A stretch of DNA of 64,000 nucleotides from Sphingomonas qomolangmaensis (lineage in GTDB: Bacteria; Pseudomonadota; Alphaproteobacteria; Sphingomonadales; Sphingomonadaceae): the NCBI RefSeq assembly GCF_024496245.1, contig NZ_CP101740.1, positions 3,134,001 through 3,198,000 on the forward strand, written 5' to 3'. The notes beneath the pieces were generated by a model. It was not told the DNA's origin. It worked only from the letters and a program-made list of their open reading frames with translations, and searched no databases. Below, piece after piece: positions 8,070-38,330 of this stretch. The stretch's first letter is position 1, and every line of letters begins with the position of its first letter. Both the position numbers and the translations under genes were made by a program.

Positions 8070-8842
8070 CGCGTCGCGCCGGGCCAGGTCCAGGGCATCA
8101 GCCAGCCGGCATTGCCGTCGGTCGACCAGAAGGTGACGACGGCCTTGCCGACCAGATTCTCCATCGGCACGAAGCTGATCGAATCGGCGAAGCGGCTGTC
8201 GCGCGAATCGTCGCGATTATCGCCCATCATGAAGACATGGCCGGCGGGCACGGTATAGACTTCGGTGTCGTCGGCGGGGCTGAAGCCGAGGTCGAGGACG
8301 TTATAGCCGACGCCGTTGGGCAAGGTTTCGCGATATTGCGGATAGCGGCACACCGGGGTGCCATCAGCGAGCGCGTCACGGAAATAATCCTCGCAGGTCG
8401 AATTCGGCGTCACCGGCAGCACGAAATCGGCGACCCGCGCCTTGGGGATCGCGGTGCCGTTGAGGAACAACTGCCCGTCGCGCATCTGCACCCTGTCGCC
8501 GGGCAGGCCGATCACGCGCTTGATCCAGTCCTCCTGGTTCTGCGGCGGTGCCTTGAACACCGCGACGTCACCGCGCGCCGGGGTCGAGGCGAGGATGCGC
8601 CCCGGGATCAGTGGCACGCTCCACGGCAGCGAATGGCGCGAATAACCGTAGTTCCACTTGGTCACGAACAGATAGTCGCCGATCAGCGTGCGCGGCAGCA
8701 TCGACCCCGAGGGGATGACGAAGGGCGCGAACAGGAAGCTGCGGATGACGAACACGAACAGCGCGAGCTTCACGAGGAAGATCAGCGTTTCCTGCCATTC
8801 GGGGCGGGTGGGTTTCGCAGCGGGGCGGGGGGACTTGGCCAT
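8042..8842 (-). CDS. lepB: Signal peptidase I
   Basis: Inner-membrane serine protease that removes signal peptides. One N-terminal membrane helix (LIFLVKLALFVFVIRSFLFAPF) is followed by the catalytic serine in PSGSM, the catalytic lysine region DWIKRVIGLPGD, and the box MGDNRDDSRDSR. 266 aa from the ATG at 8842 (MAKSPRP). A longer frame to 8917 exists, but its extra 25 residues are not family-like. First gene of the lepB-rnc-GIY-YIG-era run. Confidence 0.95.
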   Translation of the reverse strand: MAKSPRPAAKPTRPEWQETLIFLVKLALFVFVIRSFLFAPFVIPSGSMLPRTLIGDYLFVTKWNYGYSRHSLPWSVPLIPGRILASTPARGDVAVFKAPPQNQEDWIKRVIGLPGDRVQMRDGQLFLNGTAIPKARVADFVLPVTPNSTCEDYFRDALADGTPVCRYPQYRETLPNGVGYNVLDLGFSPADDTEVYTVPAGHVFMMGDNRDDSRDSRFADSISFVPMENLVGKAVVTFWSTDGNAGWLMPWTWPGATRWERIGEAF

Positions 8843-8967
8843 GCCTGGCGATGTGCTTTGGTGTGTGAGGCAGGTCAAGCGGTAAGGGGGGGCTGCCTGC
8901 AAGGTGTTCCGCCCCACGGCGCGATGCTCTACGACGCCGCCAACCGAATCCCCCGAGGAGACCGAAG

Positions 8968-10461: not shown

Positions 10462-10475
10462 GCCCTTTTTGCTCG

Positions 10476-10502
10476 GTCACCCCGGCACAAGGCCGGGGTG
10501 AC
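10476..10502. terminator. Strong hairpin after pgi
   Basis: Perfect 11-bp stem GTCACCCCGGC / GCCGGGGTGAC with a 5-base loop, 14 bases after the pgi stop. There is no T-run after the stem (the T-run is before it), so it may be a palindromic repeat or an mRNA 3'-end stabiliser rather than a classical intrinsic terminator. Confidence 0.55.
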
Positions 10503-10579
10503 GGCTCGGCAGTGGTGGGCGCATTTGTACCCGCCACCGCCGCCCCCTATCTCGCGATCACATTACCCGGAGACGCATT

Positions 10580-11926
10580 TTGCCCGATTACGACTACGAC
10601 CTCTTCGTCATCGGCGCTGGCTCCGGCGGCACCCGCGCGTCGCGCGTCGCTGCTGCCTATGGCGCGCGCGTGGCGGTTGCAGAGGAATATCGGGTCGGTG
10701 GCACCTGCGTCATCCGCGGCTGCGTTCCCAAGAAATTGCTCGTCTACGGCGCGCACTTCGCCGAGGACCTGAAGGATGCGCGGCAGTTCGGCTGGGACGT
10801 GCCCGACAATTGCGCGTTCGACTGGTCGCGGCTGCGCGACAATGTCTTCGCCGAGGTCGATCGGATCAACGGTGCCTACACCGCGACGCTCGAAAATCAC
10901 GGCGTCGAGATCATCCACGAACGCGCGACGATCGCCGGCCCGCATGAGGTGAAGCTGGCGAACGGCCGGATCGTGACTGCAGAGCGCATCCTGCTGGCGG
11001 TCGGCGCGCGCCCGCATGTGCCAAGTTGCCCCGGGCATGAACATGGCATCACCTCGAACGAGGCCTTCCACCTCGACGCAGTGCCCAAGCGCGTCCTGAT
11101 CGCCGGCGCAGGCTATATCGCCAACGAGTTCGCGGGCATCTTCAACGAGCTGGGTGCCAAGGTGACGCTGATCAACCGCAGCGAGGTGATCCTGCGCGGC
11201 TATGACGAATCGATCCGCGACCGCTTGCTCCAGATTTCGCTGATGAAGGGCCTTGAGTTCCGCTTCAACGCCGAGTTCCGCGGGATCGAGAAGCAGGCCG
11301 ACGGATCGCTGCTGGTATCGATGACCAATCACGAGCCGATCGAGGTCGATTGCGTGATGTTCGCCACCGGCCGCGTGCCGAACACCGAGGAATTGGGGCT
11401 CGAGGAAGCCGGGGTCGAGCTGCATAACGGCGCGGTGGTGGTCGACGACGAGAACCGCTCGACCTGCGACAGCATCTTCGCGGTCGGCGACGTGACGAAC
11501 CGCGTCCAGCTCACCCCGGTCGCGATCCGCGAGGGGCAGGCGTTCGCCGACACCTTCTATGGCAACAAGCCGAGCAAGGTCGATTATGGCTGCATCCCGA
11601 GCGCGGTGTTCAGCCACCCGCCGATGGCTGCGGTCGGCATGACCGAGAGCGAGGCCAAGACCAAGCTCGGCTCGGTGAAGGTATATCTGTCGGACTTCCG
11701 CGCGATGAAGAACGTGCTGGCGGGCCGCAACGAGCGCGCGCTCTACAAGATGATCTGCGACGGCGACACCGGACGGATCGTCGGGCTGCACATGATCGGC
11801 CCCGATTCGCCCGAGATCCTGCAGGCAGCCGCGATCGCGGTGAAGGCGGGGCTGACGAAGGACGATTTCGACGCGACGGTGGCGCTGCACCCGACGATGG
11901 CCGAGGAATTGGTGCTGATGAAATAG
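10580..11926 (+). CDS. gor: Glutathione-disulfide reductase
   Basis: NADPH-dependent FAD enzyme that regenerates reduced glutathione. FAD-binding GAGSGGTRASRVAA, redox disulfide GGTCVIRGCVPKK (the plant/cyanobacterial-type spacer), NADPH-binding GAGYIANEFAGIFNELG, second FAD motif SIFAVGDVT, and the interface HPTMAEE with the catalytic His-Glu. 448 aa. It starts at TTG 10580, with GGAG about 8 bases upstream. A DUF559 module follows, on the opposite strand. Confidence 0.93.
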   Translation: MPDYDYDLFVIGAGSGGTRASRVAAAYGARVAVAEEYRVGGTCVIRGCVPKKLLVYGAHFAEDLKDARQFGWDVPDNCAFDWSRLRDNVFAEVDRINGAYTATLENHGVEIIHERATIAGPHEVKLANGRIVTAERILLAVGARPHVPSCPGHEHGITSNEAFHLDAVPKRVLIAGAGYIANEFAGIFNELGAKVTLINRSEVILRGYDESIRDRLLQISLMKGLEFRFNAEFRGIEKQADGSLLVSMTNHEPIEVDCVMFATGRVPNTEELGLEEAGVELHNGAVVVDDENRSTCDSIFAVGDVTNRVQLTPVAIREGQAFADTFYGNKPSKVDYGCIPSAVFSHPPMAAVGMTESEAKTKLGSVKVYLSDFRAMKNVLAGRNERALYKMICDGDTGRIVGLHMIGPDSPEILQAAAIAVKAGLTKDDFDATVALHPTMAEELVLMK

Positions 11927-11936
11927 GGGGTGGGCG

Positions 11937-12344
11937 TTATTCCTCCCCCGCAGGGGGAGGGGGACCGTCGCGAAGCGATGGTGGAGGGGGACTGCCACGA
12001 GCGGCGGCTTCGATGTGACGCATCACCGCATCCAAATTGCTCAGCACATCGCTCGCCGATATTCGAAGCGTCCTTACCCCCCGCGCATGCAGCCAAGCAT
12101 CACGCGCGGCGTCATTCTCGGGGCGGTTGCCTCGGCTATGCGCCTCACCATCCACCTCGATGCACAGCTTCACGGCATCGCAGTAAAAATCGAGGACATA
12201 AGGCCCGGCAGGATGCTGCCGACGGAAGCGCTGCCCCCCGGGCCGCCTGCGCAACTGCTGCCACAGCAGCACTTCGGGCAGCGACATTGTTCGCCGGAGC
12301 CGCTTCGCCAGCGTCTTGGTGTGCGGCGGGCCACTCAGATCCAT
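11937..12344 (-). CDS. DUF559 (VSR-like) endonuclease-domain protein
   Basis: Small protein of the DUF559 family, related to very-short-patch-repair endonucleases (PD-(D/E)xK fold). Seen: MSLPEVLLWQQLRRRPGGQRF, then YVLDFYCDAVKLCIEVDGEAH (the acidic/ExD core) and RTLRISASDVLSNLDAV. 135 aa. Both ends are set by an inverted repeat: GGAGGGGG of the upstream copy supplies the ribosome binding site, and the downstream copy encodes the last ~18 residues (proline-rich, ending AGEE) and runs up to the stop. Function unknown. Confidence 0.8.
   Translation of the reverse strand: MDLSGPPHTKTLAKRLRRTMSLPEVLLWQQLRRRPGGQRFRRQHPAGPYVLDFYCDAVKLCIEVDGEAHSRGNRPENDAARDAWLHARGVRTLRISASDVLSNLDAVMRHIEAAARGSPPPPSLRDGPPPPAGEE
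11940..11990 (+). repeat. Repeat B, copy at the 3' end of the DUF559 gene
   Basis: About 51 bases with two internal palindromes (CTCCCCCGCAGGGGGAG, and a CGTCGCGAAGCGATGG arm). It forms the 3' end of the DUF559 gene. The copy at 12351-12401 is in opposite orientation. Confidence 0.8.
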
Positions 12345-12350
12345 CGCTTA

Positions 12351-12401
12351 CCCCCTCCACCATCGCCTCGCGATGGTCCCCCTCCCCCGCTGGGGGAGGA
12401 A
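12351..12401 (-). repeat. Repeat B, copy at the 5' end of the DUF559 gene
   Basis: Inverted relative to 11940-11990 with a few differences. It ends 6 bases before the DUF559 start and contains GGAGGGGG in the position of a ribosome binding site. It also abuts the 3' end of the symporter gene. Confidence 0.8.
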
Positions 12402-12405
12402 TATT

Positions 12406-13668
12406 CTATCCCTCCAGCAACACGTCCGCCTCGCTGCGTTCCACCCCGTCCTGGCCGCGCGCGACGACGCTGGTCACCGCGACGTCCATCGTGACGTTGC
12501 CGAGCGTGCGCACGATGTCGGGCATCGTCTCGACCGCGACCAGCAGCGCCAGCGGCTCGATCGGCACCCCCATCGCCAGCGCGATCGGTGCTATCGAGGA
12601 GACGAAGCTGATCGTGCCCGGCAGGCTGACCGATCCCAGCGCGGTGATAGCCGCCGCCGCGACGCCGATCGCCACCTGCTGCGGCGCGAGCTCGATCCCG
12701 AACACATGCGCGACATAGACCGCGACCGCGATGTTCATCGCCGGGCCGGTGAAGCGGAAGATCGCCACGGCCAGCGGCAGTACGACGCCGGCGGTCGCAA
12801 CGGGCAGCCCCAACGCCTCGGTCCCGCGCAGCATCGCGGGCAGCGAGGCGAGCGAAGACTGGGTCGAGATCGCCACCGCCTGCGCGGGCGCGACCGCGCG
12901 CACGAAGCGCTTGAGCGGCACGCGCCCGAGCAGCATCGCGGTGGGATAGGCGAGCATCCAGATCAGCACCCCGGTGCCCGCGACGATCGCGACATAATGC
13001 ACCAGCGCGCCGAACGCGGCGGTCCCGGCGGTCGCGCCGACGACGAAGGCGAGTGCGAACACGCCGATCGGCGCGAGCAGCAACACCCAGCCGATCATCA
13101 CCAGCATCGTGTCGGCCACCGCCTGGAAGAAGCGCGTCAGAGTCTCGCGCGGTTCGGCGGGCAAGGTGGTCAGCGCGAAGGCGAAGGTGAGCGTGAAGAT
13201 GATCAGCGGCAGGAACTGGTCCTCTGCCGCCGCCGAGATCGGGTTGGTCGGTACCATCGCGACCAGAAAGTCGCTGAACGGCGGCACGTCGCCGACCGGC
13301 GCCGCGCCCGAGAAACTCGCGCGGAGCGCCGCGCCTGCGTCGGCGGGCAGCGGGAACAGGTCGAGCAGCCCGAGCGCGAACAATGCGCCGAGCGTCGCCG
13401 AAATCCACAGCCACGACATGAAGATCACGATCGCGCGCGCCGCCAGCCGCGACGCCTTTGCCGCCTTCGCGGTCGCCGCGACGCCGGTCACCAGCAGCGC
13501 CACCACCAGCGGGACGATCGTCATCCTGAGCGCATTGAGCCAGATCGTGCCGATCGGCTGCGCCACCGCGCTGCCGGTTTCGGCCCAGCCCGGCTGCCAT
13601 TGCGACAGCGCGACGCCCATCGCCAGGCCCGCCGCCAGCGCCATCAGAATTCGCATTGCTTGCGACAT
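12406..13668 (-). CDS. Dicarboxylate/amino acid:cation symporter (DAACS family)
   Basis: Inner-membrane secondary transporter of the GltP/DctA fold with about eight hydrophobic segments. The re-entrant serine-rich hairpin is [13 protein letters not shown], and the substrate/cation motif region is [17 protein letters not shown] followed by [12 protein letters not shown]. Typical substrates are C4-dicarboxylates, glutamate or aspartate coupled to H+ or Na+; the exact substrate cannot be read. 420 aa. It diverges from glmM. Confidence 0.85.
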
Positions 13669-27028: not shown

Positions 27029-27104
27029 TGGTGGGCGCTGACGGGCTCGAACCGCCGACCCTCTCGGTGTAAACGAGATGCTCTACCAACTGAGCTAAGC
27101 GCCC
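27029..27104 (-). tRNA. tRNA-Val(TAC)
   Basis: Reverse complement starts GGGCGCTTAGCTCAGTTGG. The acceptor stem GGGCGCT pairs with AGCGCCC, the anticodon arm is TCTCG-TTTACAC-CGAGA with anticodon TAC (Val), the T arm contains GGTTCGAGCCC, and CCA is encoded. Confidence 0.95.
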
Positions 27105-27765: not shown

Positions 27766-28695
27766 ATGTTCGCTTATCGCGTTTCGGGATTGAGCGTATC
27801 GAGCGACCTGGCGCTGCCGGGGCTGATCGCCGGCGACCCCTGCGAGCCCGCCGACATCGTGATTCGCGAAGGCGACGTGCCGACGACGCTGCCCGAGGGC
27901 AGCATTGCTGCGGGGCCCAATTGGCAGATGGCCGACGAGCGGTTCCTGCTCGCGGTGCCCGGGATCGTCCGCATGGCGATCAGCGCGCGGCGCGAGATAC
28001 GCTACGCGCTCGACGGCGGCGATGCGCGCGATGCCGCGCCCTTCGTCGGCGGTACCGGTTTCGGCATTCTGCTGCACCAGCGCGGGCGGATCGTGCTGCA
28101 CGCCAGCGCGGTCCGCGTTGGCGATGGTGCGGCGTTGTTCTGCGGCCCGTCGGGGGCGGGCAAGTCGACGCTGGCGGCGGGGCTGGTGGGGGCGGGCCAT
28201 GCGCTGCTCGCCGACGATTTCTGCGCGATCACGATCGATCCCGATCGCGGCGCGATGGTCCATCCCGACGGGCGCCAGTTGAAACTGTGGGATAATGCGA
28301 TCGCCAGCCTGTCGCTCGAGGCGCAACGCGCCGACCCGGTGCGTGCCAAATTGCGTAAATTCCATGTCGAGCCGCAAGCCGCGGTCACCGCGCCGCTGCC
28401 GGTGCGCGCGGTGTATGTGCTGCGCGAGGCGCGGCCGCCGCAGCTTCCCGGCATCGTCCAGCCCAACATCGTCGATGGCGCGATGCTGGTGGGCCGCAAC
28501 GCCTATCGACCCAGCCTGGTCGAGCGGATGCGCCAGCAGGACCTGTATTTCCGCGCCGCCGCGCTGCTGGCGGGCGCGCGGCCGGGCGGCGTCTTCACGC
28601 TGACGCGGCGGCTGGATTTCGCCGATTTCACCGACGTCCTCGATAGCCTGAAGGCGCATTGGCGGACGATCGGCCTGGCCGAGTCGGTCTGGTGA
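27766..28695 (+). CDS. HPr-kinase-like protein, candidate lasso-peptide kinase
   Basis: 309 aa. The HprK/PEPCK-like core is clear: GRIVLHASAV, then Walker A GPSGAGKST (127-135) and the LLADDF acidic pair (150-151). The N-terminal ~100 residues are a separate beta-rich region. HprK homologues of this kind accompany some lasso clusters (paeninodin PadeK, ThcoK), where they phosphorylate the C-terminal serine of the precursor. The precursor gene at 34105 ends in serine. The ATG at 27766 has GGGG upstream; ATG 27745 is an alternative. The stop overlaps the sulfotransferase start (GTGA). Confidence 0.75.
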   Translation: MFAYRVSGLSVSSDLALPGLIAGDPCEPADIVIREGDVPTTLPEGSIAAGPNWQMADERFLLAVPGIVRMAISARREIRYALDGGDARDAAPFVGGTGFGILLHQRGRIVLHASAVRVGDGAALFCGPSGAGKSTLAAGLVGAGHALLADDFCAITIDPDRGAMVHPDGRQLKLWDNAIASLSLEAQRADPVRAKLRKFHVEPQAAVTAPLPVRAVYVLREARPPQLPGIVQPNIVDGAMLVGRNAYRPSLVERMRQQDLYFRAAALLAGARPGGVFTLTRRLDFADFTDVLDSLKAHWRTIGLAESVW

Positions 28696-29591
28696 AACGG
28701 ACGATCTGGCTCGCGTCCTATCCAAAATCGGGCAACACCTGGTTTCGGATGCTCATCGCTAATCTGGGGCGATCCGAACCCGCCGACATCAACGCGCTGC
28801 CGTCGCGCGGCGGAATCGCGAGCGGGCGCGCGATGTTCGATTCGGCGATGCTGTTTCCCTCCGCGTTGCTGACGCACGACGAATGCGACCGAATGCGACC
28901 GATGGTCTATCGATCGGGGGCGATGCACGCTTGGCGTGACCCCGACGAGGAAGACGCGGGCGAGGGCATCGGCGGGGTGCATTTCATCAAGACGCATGAT
29001 GGCTGGACCATCGGCGACGACGGCGTGCCGTTGCTGGGGGGCGCCGCTGCCGCGGCAGGCGCGATCCTGATCGTGCGCGATCCGCGCGCGGTCGCGGCGT
29101 CGCTGGCGCATCACGAGGCGCGATCGATCGACGATACGATCGGCTTCATGGGCAGCCGCACCTCGGCATTTTGCGGGCGCGACGACCGGCTCCACCGCCA
29201 ATTGCGCCAGCGCTTGCTCGGGTGGAGCGCCTTTCACGCCAGCTGGCTCGATCAGGCCGAATTGCCCGTCCACTGCGTCCGCTATGAGGACATGCACGCC
29301 GATCCCGCCGCACGGCTTGCCGCCGCGCTCGACTTTGCCGGGGTCGCCGCCGATCGCGACACCATCGCGCGCGCGGTCGAATTCGCGCGGTTCGACGCGC
29401 TGACGGCGCAGGAACGCGAAAAGGGGTTTCGCGAGGCGCCGCCGTCGCGGGTGGATCGCGCCTTCTTCCGGCGCGGGCGCGCCGACGGCTGGCGCGACGA
29501 GCTCAGCACGGGCCAGCGGCGGGCGATCGAGCGCGACCATCACGCGATGATGCAGCGGCTGGGCTATCACGCCGACCCGCCCCCCGCATGA
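28692..29591 (+). CDS. Sulfotransferase (PAPS-dependent), lasso cluster
   Basis: 299 aa. The N-terminal IWLASYPKSGNTWFRML contains the 5'-phosphosulfate-binding loop (YPKSGNTW, 10-17), followed by HFIKTHDGW and ILIVRDPRAVAASLAHH (3'-phosphate-binding region), and a C-terminal VDRAFFRRGRADGWRDELS resembling the PAPS-binding RxGxxGDW-type segment. It would transfer sulfate from PAPS to a hydroxyl, possibly Ser, Thr or Tyr of the lasso peptide (inference). GTG 28692 overlaps the kinase stop, and its own stop overlaps the B2 start, so expression is coupled. Confidence 0.8.
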   Translation: MKRTIWLASYPKSGNTWFRMLIANLGRSEPADINALPSRGGIASGRAMFDSAMLFPSALLTHDECDRMRPMVYRSGAMHAWRDPDEEDAGEGIGGVHFIKTHDGWTIGDDGVPLLGGAAAAAGAILIVRDPRAVAASLAHHEARSIDDTIGFMGSRTSAFCGRDDRLHRQLRQRLLGWSAFHASWLDQAELPVHCVRYEDMHADPAARLAAALDFAGVAADRDTIARAVEFARFDALTAQEREKGFREAPPSRVDRAFFRRGRADGWRDELSTGQRRAIERDHHAMMQRLGYHADPPPA

Positions 29592-30070
29592 CCAGCGCTC
29601 GGCTGTGGACCGCGCTGCGGATGGGGCCGCGCAACCAGCTGCTCGCGCTCGAAGCGGTGGCCGCGCTCACGACGGCGCGGCTGGCACTTGCCCGTCGCTC
29701 GTTTGCCGAGGTCGCCGCCGCGACGGGGCAGTTGGTCGCGCCCGACGATCCGCGCGCGGTGCAGCCGCCGCCGCTCGACGCGCAGCGCATCGGCATCCGC
29801 CAAGTGCGCTGGGCAATCGCCGCGATCGCGCCGCATCTGCCGTTCCGCACCAAATGCCTGCAACAGGCGCTCGCGGCGCGGGCGATGCTCGAGCGGCGCG
29901 GGATCAGCAGCGTGATCCATTTCGGGACGATGCGCGTGGGCGAGGCGCTGGGCGAGGGGCATGTCTGGCTCGATGCCGGAGGGGTCGGGGTCACCGGCTT
30001 TCCGGTCGACCCGGCGCTCACCGAAATCGGCTGCCTGGTCGGCGGGGATCAGGATCCGGCGCGAAGCTGA
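29588..30070 (+). CDS. Lasso-peptide biosynthesis B2 protein (leader peptidase)
   Basis: 160 aa transglutaminase-like cysteine protease of the lasso B2 family. Catalytic triad candidates are Cys90 (FRTKCLQQALAARAMLERRG), His125 and Asp129 (GHVWLDAGGVGVTGF). It would cut the leader from the precursor with the help of the PqqD-like B1 protein (31897). Split B1/B2 is the usual arrangement in proteobacterial and many other lasso clusters. It starts at ATGA with the sulfotransferase, and its 3' end overlaps the convergent hydroxylase gene by 22 bases. Confidence 0.85.
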   Translation: MTSARLWTALRMGPRNQLLALEAVAALTTARLALARRSFAEVAAATGQLVAPDDPRAVQPPPLDAQRIGIRQVRWAIAAIAPHLPFRTKCLQQALAARAMLERRGISSVIHFGTMRVGEALGEGHVWLDAGGVGVTGFPVDPALTEIGCLVGGDQDPARS

Positions 30071-30615
30071 TCGCGCAGCCAGTCGTTCACCTCGCAATCG
30101 ATCACCAGATGGACGCGATCGGTGTCGCCGGCGTTTACCACGCTGTGCGGATCGGCGAGCCGCAGATACCAGGCGCTGCCTTCGGGCATCACCACGCGGG
30201 TGCCGTTCAGCCGGAAATCGACCGCGTCATTGGTGGTGATCGGCACGTGGATCCGCGCCATTCCCTGCGCCGCGTCGAGATCATGGTCGCGATGCTCCTT
30301 GATCGCCGACCCCGCCGACAGCCGCATCAGCCGCACCGTCTGCAACGGGCAGGCGAACGCCGCGAGCACCTCGCGCAGATAGGGGGTGGTGGCCAATAGC
30401 GGGCCGTCTTCGAACGCGGCCGCGGTCGGATCGGCGTAGATCATCATCACCGGATGCGTCGCGCCCTTGACGATGCGCAGCGGCAGCACGTCCCAGTCGC
30501 CGCGATAATTTTGCTTCACCATATGCGCGGCCCAGTCGCTGGCGCGCAGCCGGTCGAGATCGGCGCGCAGCCGGGCGACGTCGAACGCGAGCGGAAGGCG
30601 GATGACAGGCGGCAT
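30049..30615 (-). CDS. Aspartyl/asparaginyl beta-hydroxylase-like protein
   Basis: 188 aa, Fe(II)/2-oxoglutarate oxygenase of the Asp/Asn beta-hydroxylase family. Iron ligands are likely His108 and Asp110 in KEHRDHD and His157 in DPHSVVN; RIHVPI and the 2-oxoglutarate-binding Arg167 in DRVHLVID fit the fold. It lies inside the lasso cluster but on the opposite strand, overlapping the B2 gene end. Beta-hydroxylated Asp is known in one lasso peptide, canucin A, so a role on the ring Asp is plausible (inference). Confidence 0.8.
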   Translation of the reverse strand: MPPVIRLPLAFDVARLRADLDRLRASDWAAHMVKQNYRGDWDVLPLRIVKGATHPVMMIYADPTAAAFEDGPLLATTPYLREVLAAFACPLQTVRLMRLSAGSAIKEHRDHDLDAAQGMARIHVPITTNDAVDFRLNGTRVVMPEGSAWYLRLADPHSVVNAGDTDRVHLVIDCEVNDWLRDQLRAGS

Positions 30616-30662
30616 GGCGAGTGCAAAGCTATGCGTTGCAACGCTTTGGGGGAAGACGGGAA

Positions 30663-31859
30663 ATGTCGCACGCCGACCCGCCGATCGATCGCCTTCGCCA
30701 GGCAGTCCTCGACAGCGCCGCGCTGCAAGCGCGGTTGGTGGCGATCGACGATCGCGATGCTTTCGTCGCGGCGCTCGGCGAACTGGCCGGATCGCTGGGG
30801 ATCGCGTTCGACCACGACGCTGCGGTCGATGCGGTCCGGCCCGATCCGGTCGGGCTTGCCCGCTTCGCGCCTTCGCGGTTCACCCAGATTGCTTGGCCTG
30901 TGGGCGACTGGCTGCCCACCGCGATCGTCCCCGGACCCGAGGGGGCAGGCGTCGAATGGCTGCATTTCGGCGACTCACCGCTGACCGCGCCGTTCTTCGA
31001 GGACTCGCTTCGTGCTGCGCGCCGGCGTCCGTTCAATCGCTGGCTGCGCGTGCGCACGCCACTGGTCACGCTCGCCGATGGCGCGCCCGGTGGTGCGTTG
31101 GCCCCGCCGAGCGGCCTGGTCTTCCATCTGTCGCGCTGCGGATCGACGTTGGTGGCGCAGATGCTCGCCGCCTCGCCGCGGCATGTCGTGGTGTCCGAAG
31201 CGCCGCCGTTCGATGCGCTGGTACAATTGCTCGAACGCCAGCCCGCTATCTCCTTGGCGCAGCGGGTGCTGCTCGTGCGGGCGATGGCGGCGGCATTGGG
31301 GCGCGACCGTTTCGGTAATCGACGGCACTATTTCCTCAAGCTCGACAGTTGGCACCCGCTGGCGCTGCCGCTGCTGCGCCACGCCTTTCCCGATACGCCA
31401 TGGGTCTTTCTCTACCGCGATCCGGTCGAAATCCTCGTTTCGCATCAGCGGATGCCGGGGTCGCAGACGGTGCCGGGAATGATGGGCAACCTGTTCGGCA
31501 TGCCCGACGGCCATTTGCTCGGCGCCGCCGTCTATACCGCGCGGGTGCTCGCACGGATATGCGACGCGGTGCTCGCGTATCATGCGCTGGGGGGTGGCGC
31601 GTTGATTGCCTATGGCGACCTGCCCGAAGCGGTACCCACGCGCATCCTCCCGCATTTCGGCGTGACGCTCGATCCCGACGAGCAAGCTGCAATGGCGGCG
31701 GCGGCGCTGCGCGATGCCAAATCGCCCGCGGCGCGCTTTTCCAACGACGCAGCAGCCAAGCAGTGCGAAGCAAGCGCTGCCATCCGTTCCGCCGCGACGA
31801 AGTATCTGGATAATAAGATCGCCCATCTCGATCGACTTCGTCTTGAGGCGGGGGTGTAG
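30663..31859 (+). CDS. Sulfotransferase-family protein with an extra N-terminal domain
   Basis: 398 aa. The PAPS loop LVFHLSRCGSTLVAQML (SRCGSTL 157-163) and WVFLYRDPVEILVSHQRM match a second, divergent sulfotransferase family. The first ~60 residues (DRLRQAVLDSAALQARL to GELAGSLGIAFD) resemble a Nif11-type helical leader-like domain, and residues 60-145 form a further uncharacterised region. The ATG at 30663 has GGGGGAAGACGGG upstream. It is divergent from the hydroxylase with only 47 bases between. Likely modifies the peptide, but the substrate is not shown. Confidence 0.7.
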   Translation: MSHADPPIDRLRQAVLDSAALQARLVAIDDRDAFVAALGELAGSLGIAFDHDAAVDAVRPDPVGLARFAPSRFTQIAWPVGDWLPTAIVPGPEGAGVEWLHFGDSPLTAPFFEDSLRAARRRPFNRWLRVRTPLVTLADGAPGGALAPPSGLVFHLSRCGSTLVAQMLAASPRHVVVSEAPPFDALVQLLERQPAISLAQRVLLVRAMAAALGRDRFGNRRHYFLKLDSWHPLALPLLRHAFPDTPWVFLYRDPVEILVSHQRMPGSQTVPGMMGNLFGMPDGHLLGAAVYTARVLARICDAVLAYHALGGGALIAYGDLPEAVPTRILPHFGVTLDPDEQAAMAAAALRDAKSPAARFSNDAAAKQCEASAAIRSAATKYLDNKIAHLDRLRLEAGV

Positions 31860-31896
31860 TCGTCCTAGGGTTGCCGGCGGGGCTGGGGACTCGATC

Positions 31897-32166
31897 ATGA
31901 TCGTGCACAAGCAGGATGGCTGGCTGGCGGCTCGGGTAGGCACCGAGGTGTTGATGATGAGTGTCGAGCGCGGCCTGTATCTGGGGCTGAGCGAAGTCGG
32001 CGCGCGGATTTGGGAATTGCTCGACGGCTGCCCGGACAGCGTCGCGATTTGCGACCGGCTCGAATCCGAATTCGTCGTGACCCGCGAAACCTGCGCCGCC
32101 GAAGTGGCGCTCTTCCTAGACCAACTCGCGGCGCAAGGCGTCGTCCGCTGCGAACCGCCGGGCTGA
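31897..32166 (+). CDS. PqqD-like RiPP recognition protein (lasso B1)
   Basis: 89 aa: AARVGTEVLMMSVERGLYLGLSEVGARIWELLDG, then CDRLESEFVVTRETCAAEVALFLDQLAAQGVV, the standard PqqD/RRE fold that binds RiPP leader peptides. It would present the precursor leader to the B2 protease. The ATG at 31897 follows the sulfotransferase by 37 bases; the cyclase start follows after 15 bases. Confidence 0.88.
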   Translation: MIVHKQDGWLAARVGTEVLMMSVERGLYLGLSEVGARIWELLDGCPDSVAICDRLESEFVVTRETCAAEVALFLDQLAAQGVVRCEPPG

Positions 32167-32181
32167 CGGGTTGGCGCTGCA

Positions 32182-34086
32182 GTGAGTGCGATCTATGGCA
32201 TCGTCCGCTTCGATGGGGCGCCGGTCGATGCCGTGGCGGTCGAACGGATGAGCGCGGCGCTGGCGCATCGCGGCCCCGATGGCCGCGAGACTCTGGCGCT
32301 CGATTCGATCGGCTTTGGCCATCACCTGATGCAGGTGAATGTCGAGGACCGCTATGAAGCGCAGCCGCTGCGCGATCCATCGACCGGCGTATTGCTCGTC
32401 GCCGATATCCGGCTCGACAATCGCGAGACAGTCGCCGCCGCGGTCGGGCTCGCGCCCGACGCGCTGCCGACGCTGCCCGACAGCGCGCTATTGCTCGCCG
32501 CGTACTTGCATTGGGGCGAGGATTGCGTGGATCACCTGATCGGCGACTATGCCTTCGTGGTCTGGGACCGGCGCCGCGCCGCGCTGCTGCTGGTGCGCGA
32601 TCCGATGGGGCAGCGCGGGTTGTTCTTTCACTTGAGCGCCGACTGCCTGGTCTTCGCGAGCGAAGTGAAAGCATTGTGGTGCGTCGACGGCGTCCCCCGC
32701 CGGCTGAGCGAGGTCGGCATCGGCCGGCGGTTGCTGTTCCCGATCGACCCTGCGCCCTGGGCGACGCTGTACGACGGGATCGAGGCGCTTCCCGGCGGCA
32801 CCGCGATGACGCTTGCCGCCGACGGCGGTCGGTCGGTGCGCAGCTATTGGCAACCGCACGCCGACCCGGTGCACCTCGATCGCGACGACGCCTATTATCT
32901 GCGTACGTATCGCGCGGTGATCGAGGAGGCGATCGCCTGCCGCGTCCGCCGGCTGATTGCGCCCTCCGGGCTGCTCTTCAGCGGCGGGTTCGACAGCGGC
33001 ACGATCGCTGCGGTGGCGGGGCCGATCGCCGCGGCGCGCGGGCGAAGGCTGGTCGCCGCCGCCGCGCTCGCGTCCGAAGGCGTCGAGATCCAGGTGCGCG
33101 ACGCGCGTGAGGCGGTGGAGGCGTTCTCCGACCGTGCCGATCTCGACATCCTGGCCTATCACCGCGGCGAGGACAGCATCTTCGACGCGCTCGAGGCCAA
33201 TTTCGCCGCCACCGACAATGCCGCGGGCGCCGATGTCCGGCACAAGCTGTTCGCCTTGGTCGCGGCGCGCGGCGTGCGGCTGGCGATGGACGGGCATGGC
33301 GGCGACTATACCGTCAATTCGCGCGCGCCGTGGATGCTCGGTCATATCCTACGCCGCGGCGAGCTGCGGCGCTTCGCTCGCGAATGCCGCGCGCGCCGGC
33401 GTGCGACCGGGCGAACGCTCGGACAGATGCTGCGCCACGATATCGCGCCCGCCTTGATCCCGCTGCGGCTGATCGCGTGGCAACAGGCCTGGCGGCGCGG
33501 TGGCCGGTCTGTCCTGCGCGACCGCGCGGTAGTAGCTGGGTTCGCACAGCCACTGTTCGACGCAGGCGCGATCGACCCCTCGCGGTTGCGCCAACCGATC
33601 CCCGCTGCGCATCGCTGGCGTGAGCGTGCGGTGCATCTGCTCCGGCGCGTGTCGCAAGCGCCGCCCTCACCGGCGGTTCAGGCCGCCGCGCTCGGGCTCG
33701 ATCTCACGCGCCCGTTCCACGACCGCCGCGTCGTCGAGTTCGGCCTGGCGATCCCCGAACGCCTCCAGTTTCGCGACGGGCTCGAGCGCCCGCTCGCGCG
33801 CACCGCCTTCGCCGATCGGCTGCCGGCGCGGCTGCTGCAAAGCGGCCCGGGCAACGACGCGCAGGAACCCGAGTTATTCGAAATGGCCGCGACGCACGCG
33901 CCAGCTGCGCTCGACCAGCTAAGGCAAGATGCCGAAACGCAGCGCTATGTTGATTTCGACCGGCTTGATTCGATGATTGCGGGTGCCGATGCTCGCAGCC
34001 CCAAGAATCGCCGCCGTCTGCACATTGCGATGCACGCGATCGTCACCGCGCGGTTCATCGCGTGGTTCGACCGCGCCAATCGGTAA
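32182..34086 (+). CDS. Asparagine-synthetase-like lasso cyclase (C protein)
   Basis: 634 aa. An N-terminal amidotransferase-like region (IYGIVRFDGAPVD, LAHRGPDGRETL) is followed by the ATP-pyrophosphatase domain with SGGFDSG (267-273). The glutaminase nucleophile Cys2 is absent: the protein begins MSAIYG instead of MCGI. It therefore should not hydrolyse glutamine, which fits a lasso cyclase that adenylates the ring Asp/Glu and closes the isopeptide with the core N-terminus. GTG start at 32182. It ends 18 bases from the convergent precursor gene. Confidence 0.85.
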   Translation: MSAIYGIVRFDGAPVDAVAVERMSAALAHRGPDGRETLALDSIGFGHHLMQVNVEDRYEAQPLRDPSTGVLLVADIRLDNRETVAAAVGLAPDALPTLPDSALLLAAYLHWGEDCVDHLIGDYAFVVWDRRRAALLLVRDPMGQRGLFFHLSADCLVFASEVKALWCVDGVPRRLSEVGIGRRLLFPIDPAPWATLYDGIEALPGGTAMTLAADGGRSVRSYWQPHADPVHLDRDDAYYLRTYRAVIEEAIACRVRRLIAPSGLLFSGGFDSGTIAAVAGPIAAARGRRLVAAAALASEGVEIQVRDAREAVEAFSDRADLDILAYHRGEDSIFDALEANFAATDNAAGADVRHKLFALVAARGVRLAMDGHGGDYTVNSRAPWMLGHILRRGELRRFARECRARRRATGRTLGQMLRHDIAPALIPLRLIAWQQAWRRGGRSVLRDRAVVAGFAQPLFDAGAIDPSRLRQPIPAAHRWRERAVHLLRRVSQAPPSPAVQAAALGLDLTRPFHDRRVVEFGLAIPERLQFRDGLERPLARTAFADRLPARLLQSGPGNDAQEPELFEMAATHAPAALDQLRQDAETQRYVDFDRLDSMIAGADARSPKNRRRLHIAMHAIVTARFIAWFDRANR

Positions 34087-34104
34087 CTGGTCAGAATTCG
34101 CGCA

Positions 34105-34269
34105 TCAGGAGCCGTATTGATACCCGCCGGTCGAGGTGCCGTCGGTGGCGAAGGTGACCCCCGCGCCCGATTGAGCGATATCCGAAACGATGACGGTCGG
34201 GGTCGACCAAGGGCGCCGACCATCCATCGCAGCCTCGCTCGGGCCCGACTTCATAAGGTCATCGGTCAT
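34105..34269 (-). CDS. Candidate lasso-peptide precursor (54 aa)
   Basis: 54-residue ORF with GAGGATAG before the ATG at 34269. The leader contains RRPWSTPTVIVSDIAQ, the aromatic-x-x-Pro pattern (W21, P24) recognised by PqqD-like proteins. The best core is AGVTFATDGTSTGGYQYGS (residues 36-54), with an 8-residue ring between Ala36 and Asp43; Gly35 to Asp43 would give 9. The -2 residue is Ser34 rather than the usual Thr. The C-terminal Ser54 suits the kinase at 27766. Layout resembles paeninodin (W-x-x-P leader, ring Asp, terminal Ser). No other Asp or Glu exists in the core. It is convergent with the cyclase. Confidence 0.7.
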   Translation of the reverse strand: MTDDLMKSGPSEAAMDGRRPWSTPTVIVSDIAQSGAGVTFATDGTSTGGYQYGS

Positions 34270-34538
34270 TTTGCTATCCTCGTGCGTCACCGCCACAGCT
34301 CCCTCCCGCGTCTGGGATCATGCAATTCTTCGTCGATATGGCACATCTCGACAATGTAATGCAAACGAACGCTCGCGCAGTATGGAAGCCAACGCGCGCT
34401 ACACTGGTCTCCAAAGTAATATGAACCCCACTATTTGGCGAATCGATTTTCATATTGAAATTGCGTCCGTATTTTCTACAGTGTGAAAACGAACAGTTCG
34501 ATCGGGTAAGCCGATCTACCTAGGTGGGGGCACCGTAT
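34270..34538. promoter_or_regulatory. Divergent intergenic region between precursor and tail-collar genes
   Basis: AT-richer than its surroundings. On the plus strand TTGAAA (34455-34460), a 16-base spacer and TACAGT (34477-34482) form a plausible sigma-70-type promoter for the tail-collar genes. On the minus strand TTGCAT (34359-34364), 18 bases and CATATC (34335-34340) could be a weak promoter for the precursor. No gene is seen. Confidence 0.35.
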
Positions 34539-35082: not shown

Positions 35083-35628
35083 ATGAGCGACGCATTTATT
35101 GGCGAGGTTCGCCTGTTTGCCGGGACCTTTGCGCCCAACGGCTGGGTGTTGTGCGACGGTCGGCTACTCGATATCGGCCAGAACGATGTACTCTATACCT
35201 TGCTGGGCACCGCCTATGGCGGGGATGGGGTCCAGACCTTCGCGGTGCCCGATCTGCGCGGGCGCGTGCCGATCAGCCAGGGGCAGGGGCTCGGCCTGTC
35301 GAACTACAGCCTTGGCGAAGCGGTCGGCACCGAAGATGTGACGATCACCCCGCAAACGATGGCGCCGCACGCCCACCCGGTGCTCGCCTCGACCAGTCCA
35401 AGCACGCTGACGGGCCCTATCGACGCGGTCGCGGCGACGCCCACCGGTGGCGTCGTGAAGCCCTCGCTCTACGTTTCGCGCAACGGCACCAGCGCGCTGG
35501 TACCGTCGCCGATGGACACCGCAGCGATCACGCCCAACGGCGGCAACCAGCCGCACGACAATATGATGCCCTTCGTGGCGATCAATTACATCATGGCTAC
35601 CGTGGGCATCTTCCCGAGCCGAAACTAA
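35083..35628 (+). CDS. Tail collar domain protein 2
   Basis: 181 aa paralogue: DAFIGEVRLFAGTFAPNGW, CDGRLLDI, LLGTAYGGDGVQTFAVPDLRGRVPI, then TMAPHAHPV and VAINYIMATVGIFPSRN. GGTGGGGGTGGG precedes the ATG. 34 bases after the first copy, so the three genes form one transcription unit. Confidence 0.85.
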   Translation: MSDAFIGEVRLFAGTFAPNGWVLCDGRLLDIGQNDVLYTLLGTAYGGDGVQTFAVPDLRGRVPISQGQGLGLSNYSLGEAVGTEDVTITPQTMAPHAHPVLASTSPSTLTGPIDAVAATPTGGVVKPSLYVSRNGTSALVPSPMDTAAITPNGGNQPHDNMMPFVAINYIMATVGIFPSRN

Positions 35629-35667: not shown

Positions 35668-36207
35668 ATGTCCGAACCGTTCGTAGGCGAAATCAAGATC
35701 GTAGGGTTCCCCTTCGCGCCGCGCAATTTCATGACCTGCGCAGGGCAATTGTTGCCGATACGCCAATATACTGCGTTGTTCGCGATCCTCGGCACCAATT
35801 TCGGCGGCGATGGTGTCAACACCTTCGCCTTGCCCGACTTCCAAGCATCTACCCCAATCGGGGCGGGGCAGGGGCCCAGCTTGACGATGCGCTCGGTCGG
35901 CGAATCGGCAGGTCAGGCCGCGGTGACGCTCATCCAGTCGGAAATCCCGATGCACGTCCACACGCTGACGGGAGCGACGCTGAACCCGGCTAACCCCGAC
36001 CAGAACGTCGGCACACCCGCCAACAACACGATGTTCGGCGCCTCGGCGCCCGGATTTGCGTATAGCGATGCGACGGCACCGATCGGCAACATGTCGCCGC
36101 TGGCGGTCGCGCCGACGGGCGGGAACCAGCCGCACGAGAATCGTCAGCCCTTTCTGGCGCTCAATTTCGTCATCGCGGTGCAAGGGATCTTTCCCAGTCG
36201 CAACTAG
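35668..36207 (+). CDS. Tail collar domain protein 3
   Basis: 179 aa paralogue: SEPFVGEIKIVGFPFAPRNFMTCAGQLLPI, LFAILGTNFGGDGVNTFALPDFQ, then EIPMHVHTL and LNFVIAVQGIFPSRN. GGAGGCACC precedes the ATG. No other phage genes are nearby. Confidence 0.85.
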   Translation: MSEPFVGEIKIVGFPFAPRNFMTCAGQLLPIRQYTALFAILGTNFGGDGVNTFALPDFQASTPIGAGQGPSLTMRSVGESAGQAAVTLIQSEIPMHVHTLTGATLNPANPDQNVGTPANNTMFGASAPGFAYSDATAPIGNMSPLAVAPTGGNQPHENRQPFLALNFVIAVQGIFPSRN

Positions 36208-36215
36208 AGGTCGTG

Positions 36216-36752
36216 ATGTCGATTGCGTATCCACGGCCGTTGCCGGCGCGATGGACCCAACAAGGTTATCGGTGGCGCGAGGAGTGCGACGCCGATGCGC
36301 CGTTCCTGCGCACCCTATACGAATCGACCCGTGCCGACGAACTGGCGCGGGTGATCGGCTGGAGCGACGTGCAAAAGGCGGCGTTCGTCACGCAGCAGTT
36401 CGCGGCGCAGCGGCAGCATTTCCGCACCCGCATCGCGGGGTGTCGTTTCTGGATCATCGAGCGCGACCGAAGCCCGGTAGGACGGCTATATCTGCAGGAT
36501 GCGCCCGACCGGCTGCAGATCGTCGATCTCGCCTTGCTCCCCGCCGAACGCGGCAAAGGTCTGGGAACGGCGATATTGGCGGGGCTCCTGGCATCGGCCG
36601 ACGGCGCTGCCAAACCCGTTGGTCTCAGCGTCGAGCAGGCGAGCGCGGCGCTGCGGCTATATCGCCGGCTGGGATTCGTCGTGACCCAAACCGACGGCAT
36701 TCGGTACCGGATGGTGCGACCCGCCCGGGCGGCCGCCGGCGCGCTCAGTTGA
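36216..36752 (+). CDS. GNAT-family N-acetyltransferase
   Basis: 178 aa. The acetyl-CoA-binding region is LALLPAERGKGLGTAIL (the R/Q-x-x-G-x-G/A loop), followed by LSVEQASAALRLYRRLGFVV, the usual GNAT C-terminal pattern. Directly after the third tail-collar gene, so possibly co-transcribed. GTG 36213 just before ATG 36216 is an alternative start. The substrate is unknown. Its 3' end overlaps the convergent DUF6916-like gene by 8 bases. Confidence 0.8.
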   Translation: MSIAYPRPLPARWTQQGYRWREECDADAPFLRTLYESTRADELARVIGWSDVQKAAFVTQQFAAQRQHFRTRIAGCRFWIIERDRSPVGRLYLQDAPDRLQIVDLALLPAERGKGLGTAILAGLLASADGAAKPVGLSVEQASAALRLYRRLGFVVTQTDGIRYRMVRPARAAAGALS

Positions 36753-37038
36753 AGACCGCCTCGTACAGCGTGCCCGCGGCATCCCTGCCAACCGGGACCA
36801 GAAAGATGTCGAGCGTCCCCGCGGTCGGGTTTGCCAGGCGGTACGACGCCTGCTGCAGCATCGGCACATGCGCCGATTGGAAAAGCAGCACGAAGGGCGC
36901 GCGGACGGCATTGCCGTGAGCGGTAAGCGGGCTGGCCTCAACCAGCTTCAGCGCCGGCCCGTCGGGCGCGTCGCCGATGCTGAACGCCTGGCCGACGCAC
37001 GGTGCGAACCGCTCGATCGCCACCATCGCTTCGGTCAT
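36745..37038 (-). CDS. DUF6916-like small protein
   Basis: 97 aa: FAPCVGQAFSIGDAPDGPALKLVEASP, APFVLLFQSAHVPMLQQASYRLANPTAGTLDIFLVPVG, ending YEAVFN. This beta-rich small protein is often found with tail-collar/Mdp genes, which I recall as DUF6916. Start ATG 37038, preceded by GGGGGCAGC; 37026 is an internal alternative. Divergent from the nucleotidyltransferase gene. Function unknown. Confidence 0.65.
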   Translation of the reverse strand: MTEAMVAIERFAPCVGQAFSIGDAPDGPALKLVEASPLTAHGNAVRAPFVLLFQSAHVPMLQQASYRLANPTAGTLDIFLVPVGRDAAGTLYEAVFN

Positions 37039-37085
37039 GCTGCCCCCATGCCAATCTCCCGTCCGAACATCGATGGTCGGCGAAC

Positions 37086-38330
37086 ATGATCGGCGAATCA
37101 AGCGATCTCGCCGATTCGCGGGCGACCATTGCCACCGGTTTGGCGCCGGTGCCGGGCGCCGATACGCTCGCGTTCCTGCTGGTGCGGATATGCATCGCCC
37201 GGCCACCGGTCGCCGCGTATCACCCCGCGATTCGGTCGCTCGCGCAGGCCGCCGATTGCGATCGACTGTTGGCGATCACCCTGCGGCATGGCGTGGCCGG
37301 GCTGGTCGCCCAGGCGGTGTCGGCAGCGGGGGTGGCGGTTCCGCCAAGGGTCGCTGCGGTCGCGCGCAAGCGCGGATTTGCAGCGCTGCGGCAGGCGCAG
37401 ACCGCGTTGGCGCTGCACGACGCGCTGCACCGCGTCGGGGTGGCGGTGCTGGTGCTCAAGGGCAGCACCCTCGCGCAAAGGTTTTACGCCACGATCGGGG
37501 TCCGCGAATCGGTCGATATCGACCTGGCGGTCGCGCCAGATGATGTGTCTCGCAGCTGGCGGATGCTCGAAAAGATGGGGTTCGATCGGGTGACCCCGCG
37601 CCGCCTGCTCGATGACGCGATCCCGCCTTTGTACCAATGGGCGGCCAAGGACAGCATCCATCGCCATCGGGACAGCGGGCTGGTGGTCGAGCTGCACTGG
37701 CGGCTCTCGGACGACCTAGTACGTCGCGAACTGCCACCCCCGCCGAGCTGGCAGCCGGTCGAGATCGAGGGCCGCACGCTGATGGCACTCGGGGATGACG
37801 ATCTGTTCGTCTATCTTTGCACGCATGGCGCGGCGCACGCCTGGGCGCGGCTCAAATGGCTCGCCGACATCGCCGCGATGCTGGCGGCGGCGCCCGACGG
37901 TGGGGCGCGTTACTGGCGGCACGCGCGGGCGGCGGGCAGCGCGCGCGCGGCTGCGTCGGCGCTGCTGCTCGCCCACCAGCTGCTCGGCACCCCGCTGCCC
38001 TCCGGCTTCGCCTACCGATCGCGGCGGGTCGCGCTGCTGAACCGAATCGCGATCTGCGTCATCACCGCGGGCGGGGGTACGCGCGAATTGTCGACGACGC
38101 GCTATCGCGGGTGGGCCGAGTTCGCCGCCAAGCTGCTGATCGCACCGCGCTTTGGCAACATGCTCGCGATCGTGCGGCGGGTGCTGGTGTCGGGCGAGGA
38201 TGTCGGCATGCTTGCACTGCCGCGCGGCTTCGTGTTCCTGTATCCGCTCCTTCGCGTACCGCTGTTAGTTGTGCGCCGCGTCCGCCGCGCGCAGCTCAGC
38301 GCGAACCGAAGCCGGTCACGATCGTCTTGA
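37086..38330 (+). CDS. Nucleotidyltransferase-family protein (NTP_transf_5 type)
   Basis: 414 aa. The nucleotidyltransferase core reads VAVLVLKGSTLAQRFYA followed by RESVDIDLAV (the DxD metal motif) and RHRDSGLVVELHWRLSD (third acid region). This is the family of uncharacterised nucleotidyltransferases found in polysaccharide and lasso-peptide clusters. It may transfer a nucleotide or phosphate-sugar group to the peptide, or belong to the neighbouring EPS locus; the sequence does not decide. Start ATG 37086. It overlaps the convergent sugar transferase gene by 35 bases. Confidence 0.65.
   Translation: MIGESSDLADSRATIATGLAPVPGADTLAFLLVRICIARPPVAAYHPAIRSLAQAADCDRLLAITLRHGVAGLVAQAVSAAGVAVPPRVAAVARKRGFAALRQAQTALALHDALHRVGVAVLVLKGSTLAQRFYATIGVRESVDIDLAVAPDDVSRSWRMLEKMGFDRVTPRRLLDDAIPPLYQWAAKDSIHRHRDSGLVVELHWRLSDDLVRRELPPPPSWQPVEIEGRTLMALGDDDLFVYLCTHGAAHAWARLKWLADIAAMLAAAPDGGARYWRHARAAGSARAAASALLLAHQLLGTPLPSGFAYRSRRVALLNRIAICVITAGGGTRELSTTRYRGWAEFAAKLLIAPRFGNMLAIVRRVLVSGEDVGMLALPRGFVFLYPLLRVPLLVVRRVRRAQLSANRSRSRSS

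Follow-up and report, generated by a model that had tools for sequence, protein, structure and literature searches.

Here, we report on a predicted lasso-peptide gene cluster in Sphingomonas qomolangmaensis and on its linkage to a block of genes for proteins with a tail collar domain. The stretch analysed (the window) spans 64,000 nucleotides, positions 3134001-3198000 of the single contig (NZ_CP101740.1) of this 3.43 Mb genome, and all coordinates below are those of the window, with the strand given as + or -. The cluster opens with K, encoding an HprK-related kinase of 309 amino acids (27766..28695, +; His112, Lys133, Asp150 and Asp151), and with the overlapping ST1, encoding a PF00685 sulfotransferase of 299 amino acids that carries the motif YPKSGNTW (28692..29591, +). 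B2 encodes the lasso leader peptidase, a transglutaminase-like protein of 160 amino acids (29588..30070, +), and is followed by OH for an iron/2-oxoglutarate (Fe/2OG) dioxygenase of family PF05118 (30049..30615, -; 188 amino acids) and by ST2 for a second, divergent sulfotransferase-like protein with an N-terminal extension (30663..31859, +; 398 amino acids). Then come B1, for a PqqD-like leader-binding protein (31897..32166, +; 89 amino acids), C, for the predicted lasso cyclase, which resembles Asn synthase (32182..34086, +; 634 amino acids), and A, for the precursor peptide (34105..34269, -). The product of A has 54 to 63 amino acids, as the start is uncertain and may be an in-frame GTG at 34296.

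These eight genes had been named in a preliminary description of the sequence, and all of them are open and intact. That description ended the cluster at 34269; the conserved cluster instead extends from K to a nucleotidyltransferase gene ending at 38330. Beyond A lie three collar-domain genes, COL1 (PF07484; 34539..35048, +), COL2 (35083..35628, +) and COL3 (35668..36207, +), accompanied by NAT for a GNAT acetyltransferase (36213..36752, +) and by a gene for a DUF6916 protein (PF21880; 36745..37107, -; start uncertain), and finally NTP, encoding the PF14907 nucleotidyltransferase (37023..38330, +; start uncertain). Comparison with a relative, genome G091, whose cyclase is 90% identical, indicates purifying selection on all fourteen genes, K to NTP; the ratio of nonsynonymous to synonymous substitution rates (dN/dS) ranges from 0.09 for K and ST1 to 0.32 for the DUF6916 gene. 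The precursor is 81% identical between the two, with a dN/dS of 0.22 over 54 codons. We consider it likely that the locus produces a lasso peptide of the type modified by a kinase at a C-terminal Ser, and that the OH-ST2 pair and the collar trio are separate modules. The linkage of lasso and collar genes is the surprising part: a rare cluster of familiar type is joined here by a new partner, still to be explained.

Putative lasso enzymes, kinase and precursor family

The window and 53 fetched loci (labelled L; L050, the same record as L011, was left out) were searched with profiles made from the window's proteins and related sequences; genes may be missed by such profiles, as was a divergent Asn-synthase-like gene in L115. 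B2 has the residues Cys90, His125 and Asp129 previously pointed out and scores 67.9 bits with the NCBIfam lasso B2 model NF033537, above the cut-off of 33, while B1 matches the PqqD family PF05402 with 64.6 bits (cut-off 23.4). As had been described, C contains SGGFDS (residue 267) and lacks Cys2, residue 2 being Ser. The lasso cyclase model matches it best, at 307 bits, with Asn synthase (162) and the XrtA amidotransferase (128) far behind; a second Asn-synthase-like gene of the window, at 43267, gives the reverse order (XrtA 509, Asn synthase 433, lasso cyclase 170 bits). The cyclase tree separates, with full support (100/100), all other rows from the XrtA amidotransferase and L026, an actinobacterial hit that resembles amidotransferases and comes without K or ST1. 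The earlier proposal to ask whether the cyclase and B2 group with non-lasso proteins has been answered in part: the lasso profile is far ahead for C, and the tree covers C alone and contains no characterised lasso cyclases.

The 54-residue candidate is a genuine precursor gene, as a similar gene adjoins C in relatives and belongs to a sizeable family, and its conservation beside the same genes, singled out earlier as a point to be examined, holds. The relatives carry a small gene after C on the opposite strand, and fourteen such precursors align with ten invariant columns, including Trp21, Pro24, Ala36 (core residue 1), Asp43 (core residue 8) and the terminal Tyr-Gly-Ser. A profile search against 5.8 billion proteins, in which scoring covered the 7985 best candidates, returned 83 hits with an E value of at most 0.01, counting that of the window itself. 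C-terminal Ser is found in 82 of the 83, a YGS ending in 75, Ala as core residue 1 in 66 and a Tyr in the tail in 77, and the first Asp among core positions 7-10 stands at position 9 in 52 and at position 8 in 23 (8 or 9 in 75/83). Positions are counted from the leader Trp and the figures depend on that register, which is supported by L034 keeping Thr(-2) in the same register. The window's leader reads RRPWSTPTV and thereby holds the motif W-x-x-P-x-V. Cleavage is predicted before Ala36, giving a 19-residue core, AGVTFATDGTSTGGYQYGS (34108..34164, -), with a putative ring from A1 to D8 and with the C-terminal Ser19. The like precursor beside C in relatives, the family of 83 hits and the purifying selection from K to NTP all indicate more than a chance pattern. 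K, ST1, B2, B1, C and A are, on sequence grounds, the core of a lasso-peptide cluster of the C-terminal-Ser kinase type; the lasso assignment of the preliminary description thus stands, given a B2 above its cut-off, the ranking of the cyclase profiles and a conserved precursor with its ring acid at 8 or 9.

K had been called HprK-like and scores as HPr-kinase-like, below the Pfam cut-off. Lys133, Asp150 and Asp151 are invariant in 12/12 aligned kinases and His112 is present in 11/12, and a His-Lys-Asp-Asp motif has been reported for lasso kinases (PMC9266682). The AlphaFold model of K has a mean predicted local distance difference test score (pLDDT) of 91.3, and a sequence search of the PDB gave no match for K. 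PadeK, ThcoK and SyanK are described as phosphorylating the C-terminal Ser of the linear precursor (PMC9266682, PMC8498205). By analogy with these, and with the kinase motif intact and the C-terminal Ser so widely kept, the predicted phosphorylation of the peptide at Ser19 is well supported.

ST1, the first sulfotransferase of the preliminary description, scores 62.6 bits with PF00685 (cut-off 22), and its motif YPK.GNTW is found in 11/11 aligned sequences. This motif we take to be the phosphosulfate loop that binds 3'-phosphoadenosine-5'-phosphosulfate (PAPS). K and ST1 are adjacent in 26 of the 27 loci holding both, the exception being L019, and nearly all precursor candidates of K-ST1 loci end in Ser; one candidate in L132 and one in L024 end in Thr. 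The sulfation proposed earlier is possible where ST1 is concerned, with the nearly constant kinase neighbour in its favour and the Tyr-free cores of several such loci against it, and is not the default for ST2. Tyr sulfation as the general role of ST1 was rejected, since K-ST1 loci L006, L012, L015 and L020 have cores without Tyr. A sulfotransferase encoded beside a lasso kinase this regularly is a further lead offered by the cluster.

Several loci depart from this pattern in their precursors or in B2. Small genes beside C or K in L015, L021, L022 and L024 appear to be distant K-ST1 lasso precursors with GPS endings, seemingly with Lys as core residue 1 after Thr(-2) and a ring acid at 7 or 8; if true, Lys1 would be an unusual first ring residue. 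L007 (3833-8423) shows a tandem duplication of cyclase and precursor (C-A-C-A) behind a single K-ST1-B2-OH-B1 set, and the second precursor has two adjacent Cys in its tail. Three precursor genes or gene pieces stand in a row beside one cyclase in L009 (11926-12629) and L004 (11955-12860), and one L009 core (GCDPVAVSYCYGS) has two Cys, such that a disulfide is possible. In L011, L035, L113, L132 and L052, K, ST1, B1 and C occur with no B2 found nearby; B2 genes were found elsewhere in genomes G155, G412, G558, G488 and G420, and leader removal may therefore occur in trans.

Collar genes and their linkage to lasso genes

Cyclase searches yielded 21 K-ST1 lasso loci with readable flanks, and collar genes are nearby in 17 of these (the window, L004, L005, L006, L008, L009, L010, L011, L012, L016, L017, L019, L033, L034, L035, L049 and L051) and absent in four (L015, L022, L024 and L052). 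The contigs of eight more loci end too near to be counted (L007, L013, L014, L018, L020, L021, L023 and L025). Linkage is weak in L019, where no more than two collar genes are present, about 8.6 kb past C, and the L010 stretch ends after one collar gene. The block lies between C/A and the nucleotidyltransferase in nine loci (the window, L004, L005, L008, L009, L017, L033, L034 and L049) and between C/A and B2-B1-ST1-K in L006 and L012; altogether, lasso genes flank it on both sides in 11 of the 17 linked loci. L051 also has a B2 gene beyond its collar block. Two further arrangements, in L113 and L132, were found through collar or ST2 searches and are outside the 17. Many of the loci are kin and these counts are not independent. 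By simple arithmetic, and assuming one trio in the genome, a fixed place would fall within 12 kb of the collar trio with a chance of about 24 kb/3.43 Mb, or 0.7%.

Among 396 genomes of the order, a cyclase match (E 1e-40) was found in 16 and a collar match (1e-8) in 79. As judged from contig positions with 1.5 kb on each side, 6/7 cyclase hits with a K-ST1 pair are collar-linked as against 0/9 of the other cyclase hits. Of those nine genomes, G558 carries an additional K-ST1 cyclase (L113), missed by this search, which is collar-linked. At E 1e-60 a cyclase match was found in only 3 of 385 genomes of the class, namely the window's own, G091 and a third without ST1 within 1.5 kb. No discussion of lasso-collar gene linkage was found in the open-licence literature.

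On the cyclase tree (33 rows) the collar label needs six changes if unreadable rows are scored as lacking collar genes and four if they are omitted, and in the window's clade 14 of 16 rows are linked, while the remaining two, both from L007, are unreadable. The common gene order C-A-COLx3-NAT-DUF6916 points to a single old linkage for the main group, to which L113 and L132 may add separate ones. The three collar genes are position-specific: each label requires two changes on a tree of 78 rows (26 trios), compared with about 22 when shuffled, as would be expected for three subunits of one complex. This tree omits the loci without three collar genes (L010, L019, L114, L115 and L116). Lasso-linked trios do not form one clade in it (14 changes), so that it fits a single as well as a repeated origin of the linkage.

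Further partners of collar genes were seen in other loci. In L115 (5211-9173) the divergent Asn-synthase-like gene, with 50 bits for Asn synthase and 47.5 for the lasso cyclase, stands beside GNAT, DUF6916, one collar gene and ST2, and perhaps represents another peptide system tied to collar proteins. The collar-only blocks of L125, L126, L127 and L128 are near giant repeat proteins (1486 to 2612 amino acids in the stretches seen), that of L126 with VCBS and tandem-95 repeats, and L126 and L128 have a DUF4915 gene near the collar block; these proteins are perhaps secreted partners of the collar proteins.

Proposed route and competing explanations

From the observed gene content, intact motifs, precursor family and modular linkage, we infer a series of chemical steps and their order. 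B1 would bind the leader through the RRPWSTPTV motif and present the linear precursor, K would phosphorylate the C-terminal Ser19, and ST1 might act on the same substrate. B2 would then cut before Ala1 and C would join the Ala1 amine to the side chain of Asp8. NTP scores 154.8 bits with PF14907 (cut-off 31.2) and is present in 11/16 lasso-collar loci (L012, whose contig starts inside C, is excluded here and in the OH-ST2 counts below, and L010 ends too soon for NTP) versus 0/9 collar-only loci; it therefore belongs with the lasso side. PsmN is reported to add hexoses to the phospho-Ser of pseudomycoidin (PMC9266682, PMC8498205), and the PF14907 protein probably adds a sugar to the phosphate in the same manner. 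The OH-ST2 pair on the one hand, and the collar trio with NAT and DUF6916 on the other, would be distinct modules that ended up within the lasso cluster. The trio probably forms a three-subunit surface protein, often encoded beside polysaccharide genes, which cooperates with the peptide or serves in the same context.

Several observations weigh against this interpretation. Three of the proteins fall short of curated models: K is below the Pfam HPr-kinase cut-off (27.7 vs 33.3) and below that of TIGR04352, B1 is below the NCBIfam lasso B1 cut-off (NF033536, 57.2 vs 80) and C is under that for the lasso cyclase (307 vs 525 bits). Leader residue -2 is Ser in the window rather than the usual Thr; across the precursor family it is Ala in 67/83, Thr in 9, Ser in 6 and Asn in 1, and Thr(-2) is described as not obligatory, Ile(-2) having been shown and Ala(-2) predicted elsewhere (PMC10368454). 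The lasso kinase BsfK is reported to target Ser3 and not the tail (PMC10368454), and core residue 3 is Thr in 48/83, Val in 22, the window among them, and Ser in 5. Inspection by eye of the genes listed between 17 and 48 kb, not all of which were scanned, revealed no transporter gene. Finally, nine of the ten loci fetched by collar hits (L123-L131, the tenth being L132; drawn from the 79 genomes with such hits) have no recognised lasso gene, and linkage as such is no proof of a joint action of collar proteins and peptide. A BsfK-type phosphorylation at position 3 was considered and is less likely, residue 3 being Val here and the tail Ser nearly invariant.

The strongest competing explanation, to which we give a little less than an even chance, is that the collar trio, NAT and DUF6916 have no joint function with the lasso genes and are bystanders that long ago became neighbours by chance and have stayed so through descent or island transfer. 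One origin could explain the gene order shared by most linked loci, and the four changes of the collar label on the cyclase tree, unreadable rows omitted, are few; yet the linkage has survived rearrangement in L006 and L012, with other orders again in L113 and L132. Collar blocks do occur alone in L123-L131, as do lasso genes without collars in four loci, but lasso genes enclose the block in the majority of linked loci and none of the nine other cyclase hits in the 396-genome sample is near collar genes.

The preliminary description favoured a peptide with an unusually large set of tailoring steps, in which K, ST1, ST2 and OH together yield a phosphorylated, sulfated and hydroxylated product. 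This is not the simplest reading and we regard it as rather unlikely, although OH and ST2 sit between B2 and B1 in nine loci (the window, L005, L008, L009, L010, L017, L033, L034 and L049) and their motifs are intact. The residues H108, D110, H157 and R167 of OH (HxD, H, R) are invariant in 9/9 aligned sequences and its match to PF05118 is clear (55.9 bits, cut-off 22.6); the name Asp/Asn beta-hydroxylase, however, comes from the Pfam label alone. Among solved structures, the nearest in sequence is L-proline cis-4-hydroxylase (4p7w), an enzyme acting on proline, so that OH may have a substrate other than Asp or Asn. ST2 keeps its motif SRCGSTL in 12/12 aligned sequences, and its PF13469 score of 26.8 bits is just under the cut-off of 27; a sequence search of the PDB gave no match for ST2. 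Also in favour of this reading are a Tyr in the tail of most precursors and the Fe/2OG enzyme CanE, which is described as hydroxylating an Asp of canucin (PMC9266682).

The distribution of the pair argues against such a role. OH and ST2 occur together in 14/16 collar-linked versus 0/4 unlinked lasso loci (Fisher p 0.003, with small numbers and kinship ignored). L117, L118 and L119 have the pair with no lasso gene recognised in the stretch, and its neighbours there are a sugar-transferase homologue and a gene whose product, by eye, presumably resembles a mannose-1-phosphate guanylyltransferase. ST2 is beside collar genes with no recognised lasso gene in L114 and L116, whereas L004, a neighbour of the window on the tree, lacks both OH and ST2 despite two clear precursors and a third match. 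L007, on a short contig, has OH without ST2, and L115, where ST2 and a collar gene are next to the divergent Asn-synthase-like gene, was counted for neither side. OH-ST2 would thus be a separable pair apart from the lasso core, and because it stands without lasso genes and tracks collar genes, hydroxylation by OH and sulfation by ST2 are not our default reading. The pattern cautions that OH and ST2 may have no part in tailoring the peptide.

A bolder extension, which we hold to be quite improbable, is that the lasso peptide and the collar trio make up one surface system, a three-subunit fibre paired with the peptide, in which K makes a phospho-Ser tail, the PsmN-like enzyme lengthens it and the peptide is thereby tied to a surface sugar or polysaccharide, with OH and ST2 acting on the collar side. 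If true, the peptide would serve, anchored in place, within a device for recognition or delivery instead of acting as a free antibiotic. The functions of lasso phosphorylation and glycosylation are described as still to be unravelled (PMC9266682), and a lasso cluster that often encloses a three-gene collar block, frequently beside polysaccharide genes, offers a concrete and testable context for them. That the cyclase-like and B2-like proteins are not lasso enzymes, and that the locus instead modifies polysaccharide or the collar proteins, is very improbable: C and B1 do score under the curated lasso cut-offs and polysaccharide genes flank the cluster here and in several relatives, but B2 is above its cut-off, the lasso cyclase profile is best by a wide margin and a precursor-like gene with the leader motif (a profile hit or a motif-bearing frame) is next to C in 15/15 loci of the window's clade.

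Known systems and genomic setting

The cluster resembles those of SyanK, PadeK and ThcoK, of the paeninodin type, in its split B1/B2, its C, its HprK-like kinase with His-Lys-Asp-Asp and its precursor with a C-terminal Ser, as these are described in PMC9266682 and PMC8498205. Unlike them, the window has ST1, OH-ST2, three collar proteins, NAT and DUF6916, a Ser at leader position -2 and no recognised transporter. An annotated nucleotidyltransferase beside kinase and lasso genes is shared with the pseudomycoidin cluster, but in the window NTP lies beyond the collar block, and PsmN was compared by description only. With the canucin A cluster it shares an Fe/2OG dioxygenase gene within the lasso cluster; OH, however, is a PF05118 protein closest to a proline hydroxylase and occurs without lasso genes, CanE being known by description only. 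The collar domain is that of phage tail collar proteins such as the T4 short tail fibre (1ocy) and phage minor tail proteins, and COL2 shares 35.6% identity with a minor tail protein of a Microbacterium phage across 93% of its length. In contrast to phage tails, the window's collar genes fall into three fixed subfamilies and have GNAT and DUF6916 genes as neighbours.

The presence of HPr kinase and sulfotransferase genes in certain lasso clusters was pointed out in 2014 (PMC4289311), and a 2021 review mentions a sulfotransferase in Firmicute lasso clusters (PMC8498205); the word sulfotransferase is absent from a 2022 review (PMC9266682) and a 2026 review (PMC13352647). Two open-licence papers found for lasso peptide and sulfation (PMC12325987, PMC9484694) are, in their available portions, not about a sulfated lasso peptide, and of three found for lasso peptide and beta-hydroxylase (PMC10040529, PMC9950776, PMC12230676) only PMC10040529 touches on this gene set in its available portions. 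There, the Pontixanthobacter clusters 1738-1748 comprise a lasso B2, nucleotidyltransferase, ABC transporter, sulfotransferase, aspartyl beta-hydroxylase, hypothetical protein, sulfotransferase, PqqD and Asn-synthase-like protein; the near-consecutive numbers suggest that the genes are adjacent. The set is scored there only for co-occurrence with salt tolerance, and the Asn-synthase-like gene is discussed as glutamate metabolism. Table 2 of the paper thus seems to contain the lasso part of the gene set, unrecognised as a lasso cluster. The same table has a tail fiber protein (cluster 1440) and GNAT proteins under distant numbers, by which linkage to the lasso set is not implied.

Polysaccharide genes (sugar transferase, UDP-sugar dehydrogenase and glycosyltransferases) directly follow the cluster in the window. 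Such genes are named by Pfam in L005, L034 and L035, and homologues of them flank L004, L008, L009, L017, L033 and L049; none were recognised by eye in the parts shown of L006, L012, L016 and L051. A transporter gene is present in L027 and L051. A prophage remnant was rejected, as among eight proteins scanned only the three collar proteins match phage tail families; the GNAT protein matches two phage acetyltransferase families. No cyclase match at E 1e-30 was found in 72,556 plasmid records, and scans for promoters (1 promoter-like site vs 1.9 in shuffles) and terminators (9 terminator-like sites vs 6.6) gave nothing usable. A tRNA-Val gene lies at 27029-27104, about 0.66 kb before K, where no search for integration repeats was made. 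The site of the cluster is stable in near relatives, since the window shares left-flank genes with L004 and L033.

The same genome has a second kinase-type lasso cluster, L027 (G000:C1:3069500-3089400, at about 8289-13639); ST1, OH, ST2 and collar genes were looked for there and not found. Besides the precursor MVKRTYQRPAMELLGSFETLTKGGATGNALDAAFPTGTPFSELTFS, which has Thr(-2) and ends in ELTFS, it comprises B1, B2, C, K and an ABC transporter, and a polysaccharide-export-like gene lies nearby.

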